Part shown: piece by piece, positions 31,538 through 37,336 of the stretch | Layout: every line of letters begins with the position of its first letter | How positions within the stretch are numbered: the stretch's first letter is position 1 | DNA from: Psychroflexus salis | Lineage (GTDB): Bacteria; Bacteroidota; Bacteroidia; Flavobacteriales; Flavobacteriaceae | Length of the DNA stretch: 64,000 nucleotides | Assembly: GCF_014640175.1 (NCBI RefSeq) | Contig: NZ_BMGL01000006.1 | Span: 124,001 to 188,000, forward strand | Direction: 5' to 3' | Program-made: the position numbers and the translations under genes | The notes under the pieces: generated by a model | What the model saw: only the letters and a program-made list of their open reading frames with translations | What the model was told of the DNA's origin: nothing | The model's database searches: none

Positions 31538-32371
31538 TTACGGAATCCATTTCACCTTGCTAAAATCGGGTTTACGTTTCTCTAAAAATGCGTTTCTACC
31601 TTCTTTGGCTTCTTCGGTCATATAAGCTAATCGTGTAGCTTCACCAGCAAAAACTTGCTGTCCTACCATTCCATCGTCTGTGGCATTAAAAGCAAACTTC
31701 AACATTTTTATAGATGTTGGCGATTTGGCTAAAATTTCCATTGCCCAATTAAATGCTTCTTCTTCTAGTTTTTCATGTGGAATTACGGCATTCACCATTC
31801 CCATTTCAAAAGCTTCTTGAGCAGAATAGTTTCTGCCTAAAAAGAAAATTTCTCTAGCGCGCTTCTGCCCTACCATTTTAGCCAAATAAGCTGAGCCATA
31901 GCCGCCATCAAAACTAGTTACATCTGCATCAGTTTGCTTAAAGATAGCGTGTTCTTTACTAGCTAAAGTTAAATCGCAAACCGTATGTAGCGAATGTCCG
32001 CCACCAACTGCCCAGCCCGGCACAACAGCAATTACTACTTTTGGCATAAACCGAATTAAGCGTTGCACTTCTAAAATGTTTAATCTCGGCATGCCATCAT
32101 CGTCTACATAGCCTTGAAAGCCACGAGCATTTTGGTCGCCACCACTACAAAAGGAATATATACCATCTTTAGGCGATGGTCCTTCAGCTGAAAGTAATAC
32201 CACGCCAATATTTACATCTTCTCTCGCATCGAGTAAGGCTTCAAAAAGTTCGCCTACCGTTTTTGGGCGAAAGGCGTTTCGCACTTCGGGGCGATTAAAA
32301 GCGATTCGCGCTACACCACCTGATTTTTTATAGGTAATATCTTGGTATTCTTTAACGATTTTCCAGTTCAT
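31538..32371 (-). CDS. menB: 1,4-dihydroxy-2-naphthoyl-CoA synthase
   Basis: This 277-residue crotonase-fold enzyme closes the second ring in menaquinone synthesis. The signatures are FCSGGDQNARG near residue 80, VVPGWAVGGGHSLHTVCDLTLAS and SFDGGYGSAYLAKMVGQKRAREIFFLGRNYSAQEA. The C-terminus ends FSKVKWIP, typical of MenB. Only menB is here; other men genes are not in the window. It begins 18 nt after the cysteine dioxygenase gene on the same strand, so the two may share a transcript even though no functional link is evident. Confidence 0.96.
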   Translation of the reverse strand: MNWKIVKEYQDITYKKSGGVARIAFNRPEVRNAFRPKTVGELFEALLDAREDVNIGVVLLSAEGPSPKDGIYSFCSGGDQNARGFQGYVDDDGMPRLNILEVQRLIRFMPKVVIAVVPGWAVGGGHSLHTVCDLTLASKEHAIFKQTDADVTSFDGGYGSAYLAKMVGQKRAREIFFLGRNYSAQEAFEMGMVNAVIPHEKLEEEAFNWAMEILAKSPTSIKMLKFAFNATDDGMVGQQVFAGEATRLAYMTEEAKEGRNAFLEKRKPDFSKVKWIP

Positions 32372-32389: not shown

Positions 32390-32905
32390 TTATAAAGTAG
32401 AATTTTCTGTATCATAACTTAAAGATTTAACAACGAAATCTTCTTCATCTTCATCGTAAATAGTGCATTCGTCAATAGGCCCAACATACAGATGAAGCGA
32501 CATGCTTCTGCCTTTGGCAATATTATGAAGCGAATGGTAACCTAATTTATCGTTCATATAAGACAAGCCTTCTTTTTCCATGATCAATTCATTTTTAAAT
32601 GAAAGTTCATCGTTGTAATTGAAGCGTTTTTCATGTAATTTTCCCTTCGCCAAATAAACCCAACACTCTTCTCCACCATGGCAGTGTATATCGGTTACTT
32701 GTCCTTCTTCCCAACAAAGCAACAAGAGTTCATAATCATCCGTGCGGTCAATGCAATTTCTGGTATATGAAGTTGAATCCCACGTTGCAAATTCAGCCAA
32801 ATCGGATTCCGAAATTTGCAAATATGAAACAATGCGTTTAAAATCTTTGTTTTTACATTTGGGTAAAATGCTTAATAAGTCAGAGAGTGAATTGATGTTT
32901 TGCAA
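32390..32905 (-). CDS. Cysteine dioxygenase
   Basis: The start is placed at TTG 32905, giving MQNINSLSDLLSILP, which fits the N-terminus of the family. The longest frame would begin at ATG 32998 and overlap the start of the divergent gene by 6 nt, which would leave no room for promoters; the alternative cannot be excluded. The 171-residue cupin has iron ligands His74 and His76 (DIHCHGGEECWV) and His124 (GYHSLHN). The enzyme oxidises cysteine to cysteine sulfinate. The divergent PLP-dependent decarboxylase could carry the product on to hypotaurine. The Cys in EEC is near the position that forms a Cys-Tyr crosslink in animal enzymes. Confidence 0.86.
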   Translation of the reverse strand: MQNINSLSDLLSILPKCKNKDFKRIVSYLQISESDLAEFATWDSTSYTRNCIDRTDDYELLLLCWEEGQVTDIHCHGGEECWVYLAKGKLHEKRFNYNDELSFKNELIMEKEGLSYMNDKLGYHSLHNIAKGRSMSLHLYVGPIDECTIYDEDEEDFVVKSLSYDTENSTL

Positions 32906-32959
32906 AATAAAAGCTTTTAAAATGATCAAAAAATCAGGACTAAAGCCCAATAATTTCAA

Positions 32960-32967
32960 TATTTTCG
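32960..32967 (+). promoter_or_regulatory. Weak -7-like box of the decarboxylase gene
   Basis: TATTTTCG differs from TAnnTTTG by one base and lies 25 nt before the ATG at 32993. It falls in the 87-nt gap left if the dioxygenase starts at 32905, so this gap would be the divergent promoter region. Confidence 0.35.
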
Positions 32968-32992
32968 TAAATATAAATTCATTACCATAGTT

Positions 32993-34342
32993 ATGCAAGA
33001 AGACTTGAGCTTATTTCATGAAATCGCTGAAAAATTATTTACTGAAGAAGAGAAAAATCCCGTTGTTAGACCTATTCCACCTGATGAAGTTTACGATGAA
33101 TTTAATTTGCATTTAGATGAAGATGGAATAACTGAAAATGAATTTGCTGAACTGATTGAAAAAGTGGTTTTAAACACGCCAAGAACTTCTTCTAAATTAT
33201 TTTTTAATCAACTTTTTGGTGGCAGAAATACCAAAGCAACTTTAGGCGAATTATTAGCTGTTTTGTTGAATACGAGCATGTATACTTACAAAGTGGGTGG
33301 ACCACAAGTGGGAATAGAAAAAGCACTTTTAAGTGAAATTTGTAATTTAATTAATTATCCTAAAAACGCAGGTGGCACTTTTGCTCCTGGCGGGTCGATG
33401 AGTAATTTTATGGCCTTATTAATGGCAAGAGATGTTGCCAATCAGCATATTAAAACGGAGGGCGTTCACCAAAAAATGACTTTATATACTTCAGCTGAAT
33501 CGCACTACTCTATTCAAAAAAATGCAAGTTTTGCTGGCGTGGGAACTCAACAAATTAGAAGCATACAAACCGATGAGTTTGGAAAAATGATTCCAGCTGA
33601 ATTTGAAAAACAAGTACAACAAGATATGGCCGATGGATTTTTACCATTCTTTGTTAACATCACCGCTGGAACTACAGTTTTAGGGGCATTTGACGAAATT
33701 GAAAGCTTAGATGCCATCGCTAAAAAATACAAAATTTGGAGTCATGTAGATGGTGCGTATTGTGGTGCTGTTTTGTTTAGTGAAAAATATAAACACTTGA
33801 TAAAAGGAGTTGAAAACGTAGATTCGTTTAGTTTTAATGCGCATAAAATGTTAAACACGCCTTTAAGTAGTTCCATCATTGTTACGAAAAACCGATATAA
33901 TCTACATCATTCTTTTGCCTGCGATGCCAATTATTTATACCAAACAGATGGAGATGATTTTAACTTAGGAAAAACATCGCTACAATGTGGCAGAAGAAAC
34001 GATGCGTTGAAGTATTGGTGCTTATGGAAATCGATAGGTACTAGAGGTTTAGCGAAAATGGTTAATCATCAATTTGCTTTGGCTGAAACCGCTCGAAACT
34101 ATATAAAAGAAAATGATGATTATACTTTGTATAGTTACGACGATTCTATTTCAATTTGCTTTAATTACAAAGATATCGATCCAAAGGTATTGTGCAATTT
34201 ACTATACGAAGAAGCCAAGCTAATGGTAGGTTATGGTCATTTCGATGGAGTTGATTTTATTCGTTTGGTCACTATTAATAGTAATAATACAGATGAAGAA
34301 ATTGAAAACTTTTTTAAAGTTCTAGAGAAATTTGCAAAATAA
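32993..34342 (+). CDS. PLP-dependent decarboxylase, probably cysteine sulfinate decarboxylase
   Basis: This 449-residue enzyme belongs to the group II amino-acid decarboxylases. The PLP lysine is Lys285 in FNAHKMLNTPLSS. Other motifs are GGTFAPGGSMSNFMALLMARD (phosphate region), SHYSIQKNASFAG (ring-stacking His) and HVDGAYCGAVLFS (Asp contact). Family members act on glutamate, aspartate, 2,4-diaminobutyrate or cysteine sulfinate. The divergent cysteine dioxygenase next door argues for cysteine sulfinate, giving hypotaurine, then taurine. The assignment of substrate is therefore from context; the family is certain. Confidence 0.85.
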   Translation: MQEDLSLFHEIAEKLFTEEEKNPVVRPIPPDEVYDEFNLHLDEDGITENEFAELIEKVVLNTPRTSSKLFFNQLFGGRNTKATLGELLAVLLNTSMYTYKVGGPQVGIEKALLSEICNLINYPKNAGGTFAPGGSMSNFMALLMARDVANQHIKTEGVHQKMTLYTSAESHYSIQKNASFAGVGTQQIRSIQTDEFGKMIPAEFEKQVQQDMADGFLPFFVNITAGTTVLGAFDEIESLDAIAKKYKIWSHVDGAYCGAVLFSEKYKHLIKGVENVDSFSFNAHKMLNTPLSSSIIVTKNRYNLHHSFACDANYLYQTDGDDFNLGKTSLQCGRRNDALKYWCLWKSIGTRGLAKMVNHQFALAETARNYIKENDDYTLYSYDDSISICFNYKDIDPKVLCNLLYEEAKLMVGYGHFDGVDFIRLVTINSNNTDEEIENFFKVLEKFAK

Positions 34343-34456: not shown

Positions 34457-35014
34457 TTATTCTTTCCATTTAATGTTGCACCCCATACTCGGTTTTTGAT
34501 TTTTTGGTGGTGATTGATTATTTCTAATAGCGTCCAAAGCTTCACGAATATTTCTTCCTGAAATCGGCACACCATTTTTTGGTCTAGAATCGTCTAACTG
34601 TCCACGGTAAAAAAGTTGGTTTTCTTCATCAAAAACATAAAAATCTGGAGTGCAAGCTGCTTTATAAGCTCTTGCTACGCTTTGATCTTCATCGTATAAA
34701 TAAGGAAAAGGATAATTTAATTTTCGAGCATACTCAAACATTTTATCAGGATGATCTTCGGGGTAATTCTCCACATCATTACTAGATATAGCCACAAAAC
34801 CAAAACCCAAAATTCGGTAATCGTTAGCTAAGCGAACAATTTCTTCGTTTACATGCTTAACGTATGGACAATGGTTACAAATAAACATAACCACAGTTCC
34901 TTTTTCTCCACGAATAGCTTTAAAAGTATAAAATTCTCTACTTAATGTATCTTTTAATTGAAAGTCGGGAGCTTCAATACCTAACTCCAACATGTTTGAA
35001 GGTGTAAGTGACAT
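34457..35014 (-). CDS. Thioredoxin-fold redoxin protein with CNHC motif
   Basis: This 185-residue protein has a thioredoxin-like/AhpC-TSA fold with the redox motif Cys46-Asn-His-Cys49 in FICNHCPYVKH, followed by a cis-Pro region. The motif is unlike thioredoxin CGPC. It lacks a signal peptide and is therefore cytoplasmic. It begins 48 nt after arsC on the same strand and could supply electrons to the arsenate reductase, but such genes are also found elsewhere in flavobacterial genomes. Role inferred from position only. Confidence 0.85.
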   Translation of the reverse strand: MSLTPSNMLELGIEAPDFQLKDTLSREFYTFKAIRGEKGTVVMFICNHCPYVKHVNEEIVRLANDYRILGFGFVAISSNDVENYPEDHPDKMFEYARKLNYPFPYLYDEDQSVARAYKAACTPDFYVFDEENQLFYRGQLDDSRPKNGVPISGRNIREALDAIRNNQSPPKNQKPSMGCNIKWKE

Positions 35015-35062
35015 ATTTTTTTGAAGCTAATTTACATTAATATGTAAAATAAGAAGCTGTTT

Positions 35063-35479
35063 TTAAGCAAATTTATCGGCTGCAAAATCCAAGCAATATT
35101 GCTTAATCATTTCACGTACTTTTCTAAATTCTTCCAACACTTCATCTTCACTTCCTTTGGCTTTAGCTGGGTCTGGGAAATTATAGTGCAAGCGCTCTCC
35201 TTTTCCGATAAACAAAGGACATTTTTCTTTGGCATGATCGCAAACCGTGATGATGTAATCAAATTCAATAGCTTTGTATTCATCTAAGTGATTAGAAGTA
35301 TGATTAGACAAATCAATTTCTTCTTCCTTCATTAATTCAATGGCTTTTGGATTTACGCCATGCGTTTCTACACCAGCACTATACACTTCAACTAAATCTG
35401 CTAAATAAGTTTTTAGGAAACCATGTGCTATTTGACTTCTACAGCTGTTTCCTGTACATAAAATTAAGATTTTTTTCAT
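35063..35479 (-). CDS. arsC: Arsenate reductase, low-molecular-weight phosphatase type
   Basis: This 138-residue protein has the CX5R loop Cys8-TGNSC-Arg14 and two further cysteines in ITVCDHAKEKCPLF. This three-cysteine set is typical of thioredoxin-coupled ArsC (S. aureus pI258 type), which reduces arsenate to arsenite. It differs from the phosphatase at 15.0 kb, which lacks the redox pair. It lies 12 nt after the acr3 gene in the arsenic operon and is followed by a thioredoxin-fold gene that may serve as reductant. Confidence 0.9.
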   Translation of the reverse strand: MKKILILCTGNSCRSQIAHGFLKTYLADLVEVYSAGVETHGVNPKAIELMKEEEIDLSNHTSNHLDEYKAIEFDYIITVCDHAKEKCPLFIGKGERLHYNFPDPAKAKGSEDEVLEEFRKVREMIKQYCLDFAADKFA

Positions 35480-35491
35480 TTTGAATATTGT

Positions 35492-36502
35492 TTAATATCG
35501 CCATTTATTGGCAATGGCTACTAGAGATAACATAATAGGTACTTCAATTAAAACACCTACCACAGTAGCTAAAGATGCACCCGAATTTAATCCGAACAAG
35601 GAAATTGCTACGGCAACCGCTAACTCAAAAAAATTACTAGCACCAATCATAGCAGAAGGCGCACAAACCTTATGTTTCAATTTTATATAGCGACCTAAAA
35701 ACCACGTAATAAAAAAGATAAAATAAGTTTGAATGGTGAGTGGTACAGCAATTAGCAAAATATGAAAGGGGTTATTTAAAATTTTATCGCCTTGAAAAGC
35801 GAATAAAAGTACTAAAGTGGTAATTAAAGCAACCATAGAAACGGACTTCAACTTCGCAATAAAAACTTGGGTAAACCATTCTTTACCTTTAGATTTAATA
35901 AATAAATTGCTGGACAAATAACCTGCAACTAAAGGAATAACAACAAAAATCAAAACAGAATACAACAAAGTGTCGTATGGAATTTCAATATTTGTGACGC
36001 CCAACAAAAAACGAACAATGGGAATAAAAAGCACCAATAAAATTAAATCGTTTAACGAAACTTGCACTAAGGTATAATTGGCATCGCCCTTTGTTAAATA
36101 CGACCAAACAAACACCATGGCAGTACAAGGAGCAGCTCCCAAAATAATGGCTCCAGCAATATATTGTTCGGCTTCTTCTGGATGTAGATAAGCTTGAAAA
36201 ACTTGGTCGAAAAACAACCAAGCAAAAAAGGCCATCGTAAAAGGTTTTACTAACCAATTAATAACGATGGTTAATCCTAATCCTTTAGAATTTTGCTTTA
36301 CATTTTTTAAAGAAGAAAAATCAATTTGTACCATCATGGGGTAAATCATCATCCAAACCAAAATGGCTACAGGAATATTGACTTTTGCAATTTCTAATTC
36401 ACTTAAAAATTGAATAGAGTTACCTGCAATGCTTCCTATAGCTATACCAGCTATTATGCCTAAAGCTACCCAAACACTTAAATATTTTTCGAATGTTCCC
36501 AT
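35492..36502 (-). CDS. Arsenite efflux permease, ACR3 family
   Basis: This 336-residue protein has about ten transmembrane helices and the ACR3 motif AAPCTAMVFVWSYL, whose Cys is essential for arsenite transport in characterised members, plus GASNFFELAVAVAISLFG near the C-terminus. It exports As(III) (and perhaps antimonite) from the cytoplasm using the proton-motive force. It begins one nt after the DUF6428 stop and ends 12 nt before arsC, so the operon is tightly packed. Confidence 0.94.
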   Translation of the reverse strand: MGTFEKYLSVWVALGIIAGIAIGSIAGNSIQFLSELEIAKVNIPVAILVWMMIYPMMVQIDFSSLKNVKQNSKGLGLTIVINWLVKPFTMAFFAWLFFDQVFQAYLHPEEAEQYIAGAIILGAAPCTAMVFVWSYLTKGDANYTLVQVSLNDLILLVLFIPIVRFLLGVTNIEIPYDTLLYSVLIFVVIPLVAGYLSSNLFIKSKGKEWFTQVFIAKLKSVSMVALITTLVLLFAFQGDKILNNPFHILLIAVPLTIQTYFIFFITWFLGRYIKLKHKVCAPSAMIGASNFFELAVAVAISLFGLNSGASLATVVGVLIEVPIMLSLVAIANKWRY

Positions 36503-36503
36503 T

Positions 36504-36992
36504 TTAGCAGCAACCAGAATTTGGAGTACAGGCTTGCATTTTAGCTTGTAATTCAGAAAGCTTCATTTTGGGTTTCTTTTTTGGCATTTTATTTTCAGGA
36601 ATACCACAACTATCTTTGGCTAAACAATCGGTTAAAGTAGTTTGTAAAATGAATTTTCCATCGGCAAAATCTAAATGATATTTCCCTATGGTATTGCCTT
36701 GGTATTCTACTTCCACTTCTAAATCTTCACTAATTCCAAGTTTTTCTTCAGAAAGTAAGATGATATTTTTCAACTTTTTAGGCTCCAAACGATGATCTAC
36801 ATCTTCGGCTGTCCACAATTGAAAATTGACTGCTTTTTCATTTCGAATTGTTCCACCACAATCGATAAAATCACGTTGAACCAAACCGACTTCAGTTACA
36901 TGAAAATGATGTGGAACTGTTTCACCATCTGGCAAATTAAAGATAAGTTGATTTACTTTTTCTAGATGTTGTTTTATTTCTTTTAATTTCAT
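36504..36992 (-). CDS. DUF6428 family protein of arsenic operon
   Basis: The start is placed at MKLKEIKQHLEKVNQ, 7 codons inside the longest frame; the longer version would run into arsR. The 162-residue soluble protein has a beta-rich core (VPHHFHVTEVGLVQRDFIDCGGTIR and LEVEVEYQGNTIGKYHLDFADGKFIL) and a Cys-containing C-terminus (DCLAKDSCGIP and the final CTPNSGCC). DUF6428 genes occur regularly between arsR and acr3 in Bacteroidota. The terminal cysteines might bind As(III), but no biochemical data are known to me. Spacing to acr3 is one nt. Confidence 0.85.
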   Translation of the reverse strand: MKLKEIKQHLEKVNQLIFNLPDGETVPHHFHVTEVGLVQRDFIDCGGTIRNEKAVNFQLWTAEDVDHRLEPKKLKNIILLSEEKLGISEDLEVEVEYQGNTIGKYHLDFADGKFILQTTLTDCLAKDSCGIPENKMPKKKPKMKLSELQAKMQACTPNSGCC

Positions 36993-37003
36993 TATTAAAT
37001 ATT

Positions 37004-37336
37004 TTAACAGCACAAAGATTTCAATGCTGCTTCTTGATTTATAAAATTTCCGATACTTTTTCTAAATTCATTCCATTGGTCAACATCTAAACAGTAACAT
37101 GTAGACGGACCTTGAATCGTACCTTGAATTAAACCTGCTTTTTTCAAGGCTAACAAATGCTGACTTACAGTAGATTGCGCCAGTCCTAAATCCTGAACAA
37201 AATCTCCACAAACACAAGTTTCAGTTTGAAGCAAACGATTAATGATGGTTATTCTCGCTGGATGTGCCACGGCTTTTGCCAGGTTGGCAATTGCATTAAC
37301 TTCGTTTGTAAAAAGCTTGGTTTTTGTAGTTCCCAT
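37004..37336 (-). CDS. arsR: ArsR/SmtB family transcriptional repressor
   Basis: This 110-residue protein has a winged helix (DLGLAQSTVSQHLLALKKAGL, recognition helix) preceded by the As(III)-sensing pattern ETCVCGDF (Cys41-Val-Cys43). Extra cysteines occur in STCYCLDV and a C-terminal LCC; these could serve as additional ligands. It would release the operator when arsenite binds, derepressing arsR-DUF6428-acr3-arsC. The start ATG lies about 15 nt after a -7 box and 31 nt from a palindrome, which forms the likely operator. Confidence 0.93.
   Translation of the reverse strand: MGTTKTKLFTNEVNAIANLAKAVAHPARITIINRLLQTETCVCGDFVQDLGLAQSTVSQHLLALKKAGLIQGTIQGPSTCYCLDVDQWNEFRKSIGNFINQEAALKSLCC

Follow-up and report, generated by a model that had tools for sequence, protein, structure and literature searches.

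A cysteine dioxygenase and a decarboxylase with cysteine sulfinate-type residues are encoded side by side in Psychroflexus salis and across Bacteroidota: a probable bacterial hypotaurine/taurine module

Within a 64,000-nucleotide stretch of the 2.87 Mb genome of Psychroflexus salis (hereafter the window), a cysteine dioxygenase (CDO) gene and a group II PLP decarboxylase gene lie back to back. The catalytic residues of both proteins are intact, the decarboxylase aligns with a pocket of the cysteine sulfinate decarboxylase (CSAD) type, and the two genes adjoin each other across Bacteroidota; from these observations we infer the substrates, the products, the step from hypotaurine to taurine and the physiological use. 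On sequence grounds, the pair very likely constitutes a bacterial hypotaurine/taurine module leading from cysteine through cysteine sulfinate to hypotaurine. In such a module, the iron cupin CDO would convert cysteine and O2 to cysteine sulfinate, and the PLP decarboxylase would take the alpha-carboxyl off cysteine sulfinate to yield hypotaurine, as well as giving taurine from any cysteate; the hypotaurine or taurine would probably be kept as a solute or antioxidant. A joint route of this kind had been proposed in a preliminary description of this DNA, and the adjacency, the CSAD-type residues and the presence of PanD lend it support.

Results

The gene pair and its surroundings

The features that concern us are as follows.
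32390..32905, minus strand: CDO of the CDO_I family, 171 amino acids (Pfam PF05995, residues and AlphaFold model).
32906..32992, no strand: divergent intergenic region, 87 bp (DNA alignment).
32993..34342, plus strand: group II PLP decarboxylase, probable cysteine sulfinate decarboxylase, 449 amino acids (Pfam, PDB ranking and motif).
34457-37336, minus strand: arsenic-type cluster downstream (Pfam).

Both open reading frames are intact at these coordinates, and the back-to-back arrangement was thus correctly described at the outset. In the region between them, TATTTTCGTAAATATAAATT sits upstream of the decarboxylase start, and GTAAAnATAAATT was kept in 11 of 11 Psychroflexus rows of the DNA alignment; this conserved 87-bp block may hold both promoters. 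A sigma-70-type scan returned 8 promoter-like sites versus 10.1 in shuffled sequences, i.e., no excess, and no terminator-like site was found in the promoter/terminator scan. On the far side of CDO and in the same orientation, an enoyl-CoA hydratase-family gene (31538-32371, minus strand) begins only about 19 bp past the stop of CDO, and it could therefore share a transcript with CDO. The downstream cluster comprises, by Pfam, AhpC/TSA-like, low-molecular-weight (LMW) phosphatase-type (ArsC-like), SBF-family (ACR3-like) transporter, DUF6428 and ArsR-family regulator genes, and presumably has a role related to arsenic.

Cysteine dioxygenase

The minus-strand protein belongs to CDO_I (PF05995; 1.6e-23, 83.5 bits against a Pfam cut-off of 23). 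In an alignment of 30 CDOs, the Fe ligands His74, His76 and His124, which the original assignment as a cupin CDO had named, were invariant, as were Arg49, Cys81, His138 and Tyr140 (numbering counted from the TTG at 32905). The alignment equates Arg49 with mammalian Arg60, Cys81 with Cys93, and the Ser136-His138-Tyr140 triad with Ser153/His155/Tyr157, so that the three-histidine iron site, Arg60 and the Ser-His-Tyr triad are all matched. An alternative frame of 202 amino acids in the list of open reading frames starts further upstream; nonetheless, the TTG at 32905 appears the likely start, because the alignment of most relatives in the genus begins near residue 30 of that frame, and because the relative G011, whose decarboxylase is 88% identical to that of the window, has a stop codon inside the upstream part of this frame. 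By sequence, the best PDB match was mammalian CDO1 (78 bits), bacterial entries reaching 38 bits. The AlphaFold model (pLDDT 94.6) likewise compared with mammalian CDO at Z 24-25 and with bacterial thiol dioxygenases at Z 19-21.

Decarboxylase and its selectivity residues

The plus-strand protein matched Pyridoxal_deC (PF00282) at 8.8e-76, and its PLP lysine, Lys285, which is preceded by His284, was invariant in 16 and in 31 aligned decarboxylases, in full agreement with the group II assignment made earlier. The nearest named record among the matches listed was Psychroflexus planctonicus, with a decarboxylase 88% identical. A second decarboxylase copy, 63% identical to the window protein, was noticed in one relative (G016, C104:4335-5678) that already has a paired copy; this genome has two decarboxylase copies and only one CDO match.

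Ranking by sequence against the PDB placed GADL1 first (3.2e-76), followed by human CSAD (2.6e-75), mouse CSAD (4.5e-73) and GAD67 (3e-69). In the pairwise alignments with these PDB chains, the window protein reads Phe75/Ser95/Tyr97 at three selectivity positions, where CSAD has Phe/Ser/Tyr, GADL1 Tyr/Ser/Tyr and GAD67 Ser/Asn/Phe. We take these positions to be the motif of Agnello 2013; the residue identities themselves were seen as differences between CSAD and GAD in the alignments. By alignment, then, the selectivity residues of the decarboxylase are of the CSAD type, F/S/Y, and beside the motif GGPQVGIEKALL stands in place of APVFVLMEEEVL of CSAD. Three active-site positions are given in the available text of PMC8153620 as setting the selectivity between GAD and CSAD; the same text describes a bacterial CSAD purified from Synechococcus PCC 7335. 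According to the available part of PMC7367687, a pocket position that is Ser in GAD, Tyr in GADL1 and Phe in CSAD is a determinant of specificity; at the position aligned with it, the window protein has Phe.

Structure does not decide the substrate, because pLDDT falls below 50 across residues 67-101, the part with the selectivity motif, and because the model is tied by Z among GAD67, GAD65, GADL1 and CSAD (40-41 for all alike; 40.3 to 2jis over 344 residues). Several curated families were tried and rejected, namely L-2,4-diaminobutyrate decarboxylase (NF052646; 176.2 bits against a curated cut-off of 900), PanP-type aspartate 1-decarboxylase (TIGR03799; 127.1 against 606.1 bits) and the archaeal tyrosine decarboxylase family, for which the protein is far below the curated cut-off. 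Preference for aspartate, glutamate or diaminobutyrate had been named in the preliminary description as the finding that would overturn it; as judged from sequence, F75/S95/Y97, the ranking of GADL1 and CSAD above GAD67, and the 176 versus 900 bits speak mostly against such a preference.

Aspartate deserves separate mention, since an enzyme acting mainly as an aspartate 1-decarboxylase for beta-alanine, in the manner of GADL1 or insect ADC, with CDO serving the breakdown of cysteine to sulfite, is the alternative that survives best, although we regard it as unlikely. It draws on GADL1 being the top PDB match and close to CSAD, and on the stronger preference of GADL1 than of CSAD for aspartate, as stated in the available text of PMC5947694; however, the pocket residue is the Phe of CSAD and not the Tyr of GADL1, and the adjacency to CDO would be left unexplained.

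Conservation of the pairing

The preliminary description had made its reading depend on whether the two genes stay together in relatives, and the pairing is indeed strongly conserved and not a matter of chance. An orthologue of the decarboxylase occurs in 19 of the 27 genomes searched in the genus, and every one of these 19 has a CDO within about 100 bp in divergent orientation. The remaining eight, two of which are incomplete (52% and 86%), have neither an orthologue nor a CDO match except one weak hit (6e-4) in G009. Over all 60 relatives, orthologues of at least 55% identity were found in 23, with CDO adjoining in 21; the two others, G046 and G058, are members of a different family (f11). 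Across a phylum sample of 395 genomes, CDO_I exceeded the cut-off in eight and a closely homologous decarboxylase (more than 680 bits) was present in eight, both occurring side by side in six; these six are not independent, since three are from the genus of the window and three from one other genus.

Among the best 80 named loci of 517 candidates, CDO was adjacent in 54 (46 divergent and 8 same-strand) and not adjacent in 26, one of the latter (L077) sitting at a contig edge. Psychroflexus accounts for sixteen of these loci, in overlap with the 27 genus genomes counted above; outside Psychroflexus, CDO was adjacent in 39 of 64. The named loci were found by patterns that include the F/S/Y motif, and the set is therefore biased towards it. 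The pairing has outlasted changes of layout, from divergent to same-strand or the reverse, which speaks for the two genes being functionally linked.

When CDO adjacency was mapped on a FastTree of 91 decarboxylases (61 labelled as having adjacent CDO, 29 as not, and 1 not counted), no fewer than 7 changes were needed, compared with 24.9 on average after shuffling; the adjacency has therefore been gained or lost several times. The flanking genes of a Psychroserpens locus with CDO (L118) and of two Winogradskyella loci without it (L108, L110) are alike by eye, which suggests that CDO was lost or gained in place in these lineages. F/S/Y was considered as a predictor of CDO linkage and rejected, as 60 of the 91 loci have F/S/Y with adjacent CDO, 25 have it without, and 1 lies at a contig edge; L090, which has no CDO, also reads F/S/Y and was missed by the motif pattern.

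Plasmid records gave no CDO match and 115 decarboxylase matches, all below 60% identity (25-31% in the 15 matches listed). One record titled as a Verrucomicrobia metagenome-assembled genome (MAG; L092) carries a Bacteroidota-like CDO/decarboxylase pair that the tree places among rows of Bacteroidota, and is mis-binned or transferred.

Decarboxylases without a dioxygenase, and PanD

PanD was found in 51 of 60 genomes, that of the window included, and beta-alanine and pantothenate therefore do not depend on the window decarboxylase. Of the 19 paired genus genomes, 18 have PanD, that of the window among them, the exception (G006) being 80% complete; this further counts against an aspartate enzyme. 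On the other side of the balance, the PanD hit is missing in 6 of 28 searched genomes with adjacent CDO (L092, L095, L100, L131, L136 and L137), all of them MAGs that may be incomplete, and in which a dual role with aspartate is possible. The two f11 genomes (loci L022 and L023) also have a decarboxylase orthologue without a CDO or PanD match, as an aspartate enzyme would allow, but they differ from the paired enzymes at the motif, Tyr97 being replaced by Ala. A switch to aspartate through this replacement may be entertained as a lead only, coming from two genomes of one family; as they match neither CDO nor PanD, they constitute a natural experiment on substrate choice.

Twenty-eight decarboxylase genomes without adjacent CDO were also searched; CDO_I turned up away from the decarboxylase or on a different contig in 8 of them, and no match was obtained in the other 20. 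PanD is present in 18 of these 20, and their decarboxylases keep F/S/Y (Y/S/Y in G174); Ulvibacter antarcticus and Winogradskyella flava are examples of named isolates among the carriers lacking a CDO_I match. The substrate is therefore not strictly tied to CDO, and the retention of F/S/Y implies that these genomes obtain sulfinate or cysteate in some other way or that the enzyme has a different role. At four loci with CSAD-type residues and no adjacent CDO (L072, L074, L108 and L110), the neighbours are presumably nqr-type, ApaG-like and aldehyde-dehydrogenase-like; no CDO_I match was found in the genomes of L072, L074 and L108.

It could be argued from these 18 genomes that the decarboxylase mainly uses cysteate from another source, giving taurine directly, with CDO as a helper in some lineages only. 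Human CSAD does act on cysteate, according to the available text of PMC8153620, and the genomes in question gave no match to a PCO/ADO thiol dioxygenase either, in a search of 21 genomes including that of the window in which the control genomes were equally silent. Against this stands the matched presence of the two genes in the genus (19 with both, 8 with neither), an indication that in this genus CDO is the supplier, and we consider the cysteate reading improbable. Least credible of all is a chance association of unrelated neighbours, or one maintained by a promoter region common to both: most pairs are divergent over a short common intergenic region, but both layouts occur among the 54 pairs, and CDO_I, rare though it is (above the cut-off in 8 of 395 genomes), adjoins this decarboxylase in 6 of the 8, albeit from only two genera.

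The Cys/Tyr pair in the CDO active site

In addition to the hypotaurine/taurine module itself, the CDO merits attention because Cys81 and Tyr140 place a Cys and a Tyr at both cofactor positions (Cys93/Tyr157) in the alignment. When 79 distinct bacterial CDO rows were mapped on human CDO1, position 93 was Cys in 70 and Tyr157 was present in 77, the other two being gaps. Decarboxylase-bearing genomes account for 72 of the 79 rows, of which 70 have Cys, one (L097) is cut off by a contig end, and one (L184, a second copy) has Ser; every first CDO copy that covers the site in these genomes thus has Cys and Tyr. The seven rows from genomes without the orthologue (L052-L055 and L173-L175) have Gly in 4 and Trp in 3. 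These seven are more distant, with scores of 32 to 132 bits when compared with a model built on the CDOs of Psychroflexus and at least L175 below the Pfam cut-off, and the contrast of Cys with Gly/Trp is therefore partly one between subfamilies.

The available text of PMC8050391 describes a C93-Y157 crosslink in eukaryotic CDOs and an unmodified Tyr in bacterial forms, and that of PMC4019311 states that 'many' bacterial CDOs are without the cysteine, wording from which it follows that some Cys-bearing ones may be known. No natural bacterial CDO with the Cys-Tyr pair was described in the literature found, subscription papers being mostly outside the search. The residues suggest that the thioether crosslink may form in the window CDO. 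We tentatively propose, with somewhat less than even confidence, that the CDOs of taurine modules are a class of cysteine dioxygenases in which bacteria naturally carry the Cys-Tyr cofactor. If so, this self-made thioether cofactor, described as eukaryotic, would be natural in bacteria too and would go together with committed hypotaurine synthesis, and the Cys/Tyr pair would allow the crosslink of CDO to be studied in a small bacterial model.

Recent transfer from animals was considered and rejected, as far as a tree with a single eukaryote can tell. The distinct CDOs, except L097, were placed on a midpoint-rooted FastTree together with human CDO1 as the one eukaryotic row; human CDO1 groups there with six divergent Gly/Trp proteins (support 0.974), outside the clade of the bacterial Cys rows; the latter clade has a support of 0.515 and also includes the non-Cys rows L052 and L184.

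Discussion

The fate of the product was approached through the genome itself, where the best FMO-like match is marginal (23.5 bits against a cut-off of 22) and the best Xsc match is far under its cut-off (25.9 against 676 bits). Both values fit, and do not show, hypotaurine or taurine as the end product; the osmolyte and antioxidant roles are guesses. Taurine is an abundant organic sulfur compound of the sea, usually credited to animals and algae, and heterotrophic Bacteroidota with this gene pair would be additional producers.

In one respect the preliminary description was out of date. It held that there was little evidence for the route in flavobacteria, while the available text of PMC12585060 (2025) places taurine synthesis via cysteine in marine cyanobacteria and marine flavobacteria on the basis of earlier work, the group of papers cited including Agnello 2013. 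Bacterial and microalgal taurine synthesis is described as demonstrated but sporadic in the available part of PMC10356861. Neither the pattern of residues in CDO nor the contrast at Tyr97 was found in print in the literature searched, from which subscription papers were mostly absent.

Comparison with known systems

Animal CDO1 shares with the window CDO the three-histidine iron site, Arg60, the Ser-His-Tyr triad and the Cys93/Tyr157 pair, at the structural similarity given above; it differs in sequence (32% identity, 47 of 146 aligned residues over the human stretch), and the thioether itself is presumed here. Bacterial thiol dioxygenases such as B. subtilis YubC and the P. aeruginosa enzyme have the cupin fold and the same Pfam family or fold, but scored lower than mammalian CDO in both bits and Z; among them, the title of PDB entry 4wvz denotes an artificial crosslinked G95C variant. 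The animal CSAD and GADL1 have the same group II PLP decarboxylase fold, the F/S/Y residues of the window being those of CSAD, while their PDB chains are longer (515-530 amino acids versus 449).

The closest precedent is the prokaryotic pathway of Agnello et al. 2013 (ACS Chem Biol), who reportedly described taurine synthesis in prokaryotes, with a CSA motif in marine bacteria, activity of the enzyme from Synechococcus, taurine inside the cells and CDO often in the same operon. The CDO and CSAD of that pathway, from Synechococcus sp. PCC 7335, are of the same two enzyme families as the window pair, and are said to combine CSA-type pocket residues with CDO and CSAD genes lying together, as in the window. 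The Synechococcus system is from another phylum, and the Bacteroidota pairs are usually divergent rather than in one operon. The window pair thus adds a further, well-supported example to a pathway that is already known.
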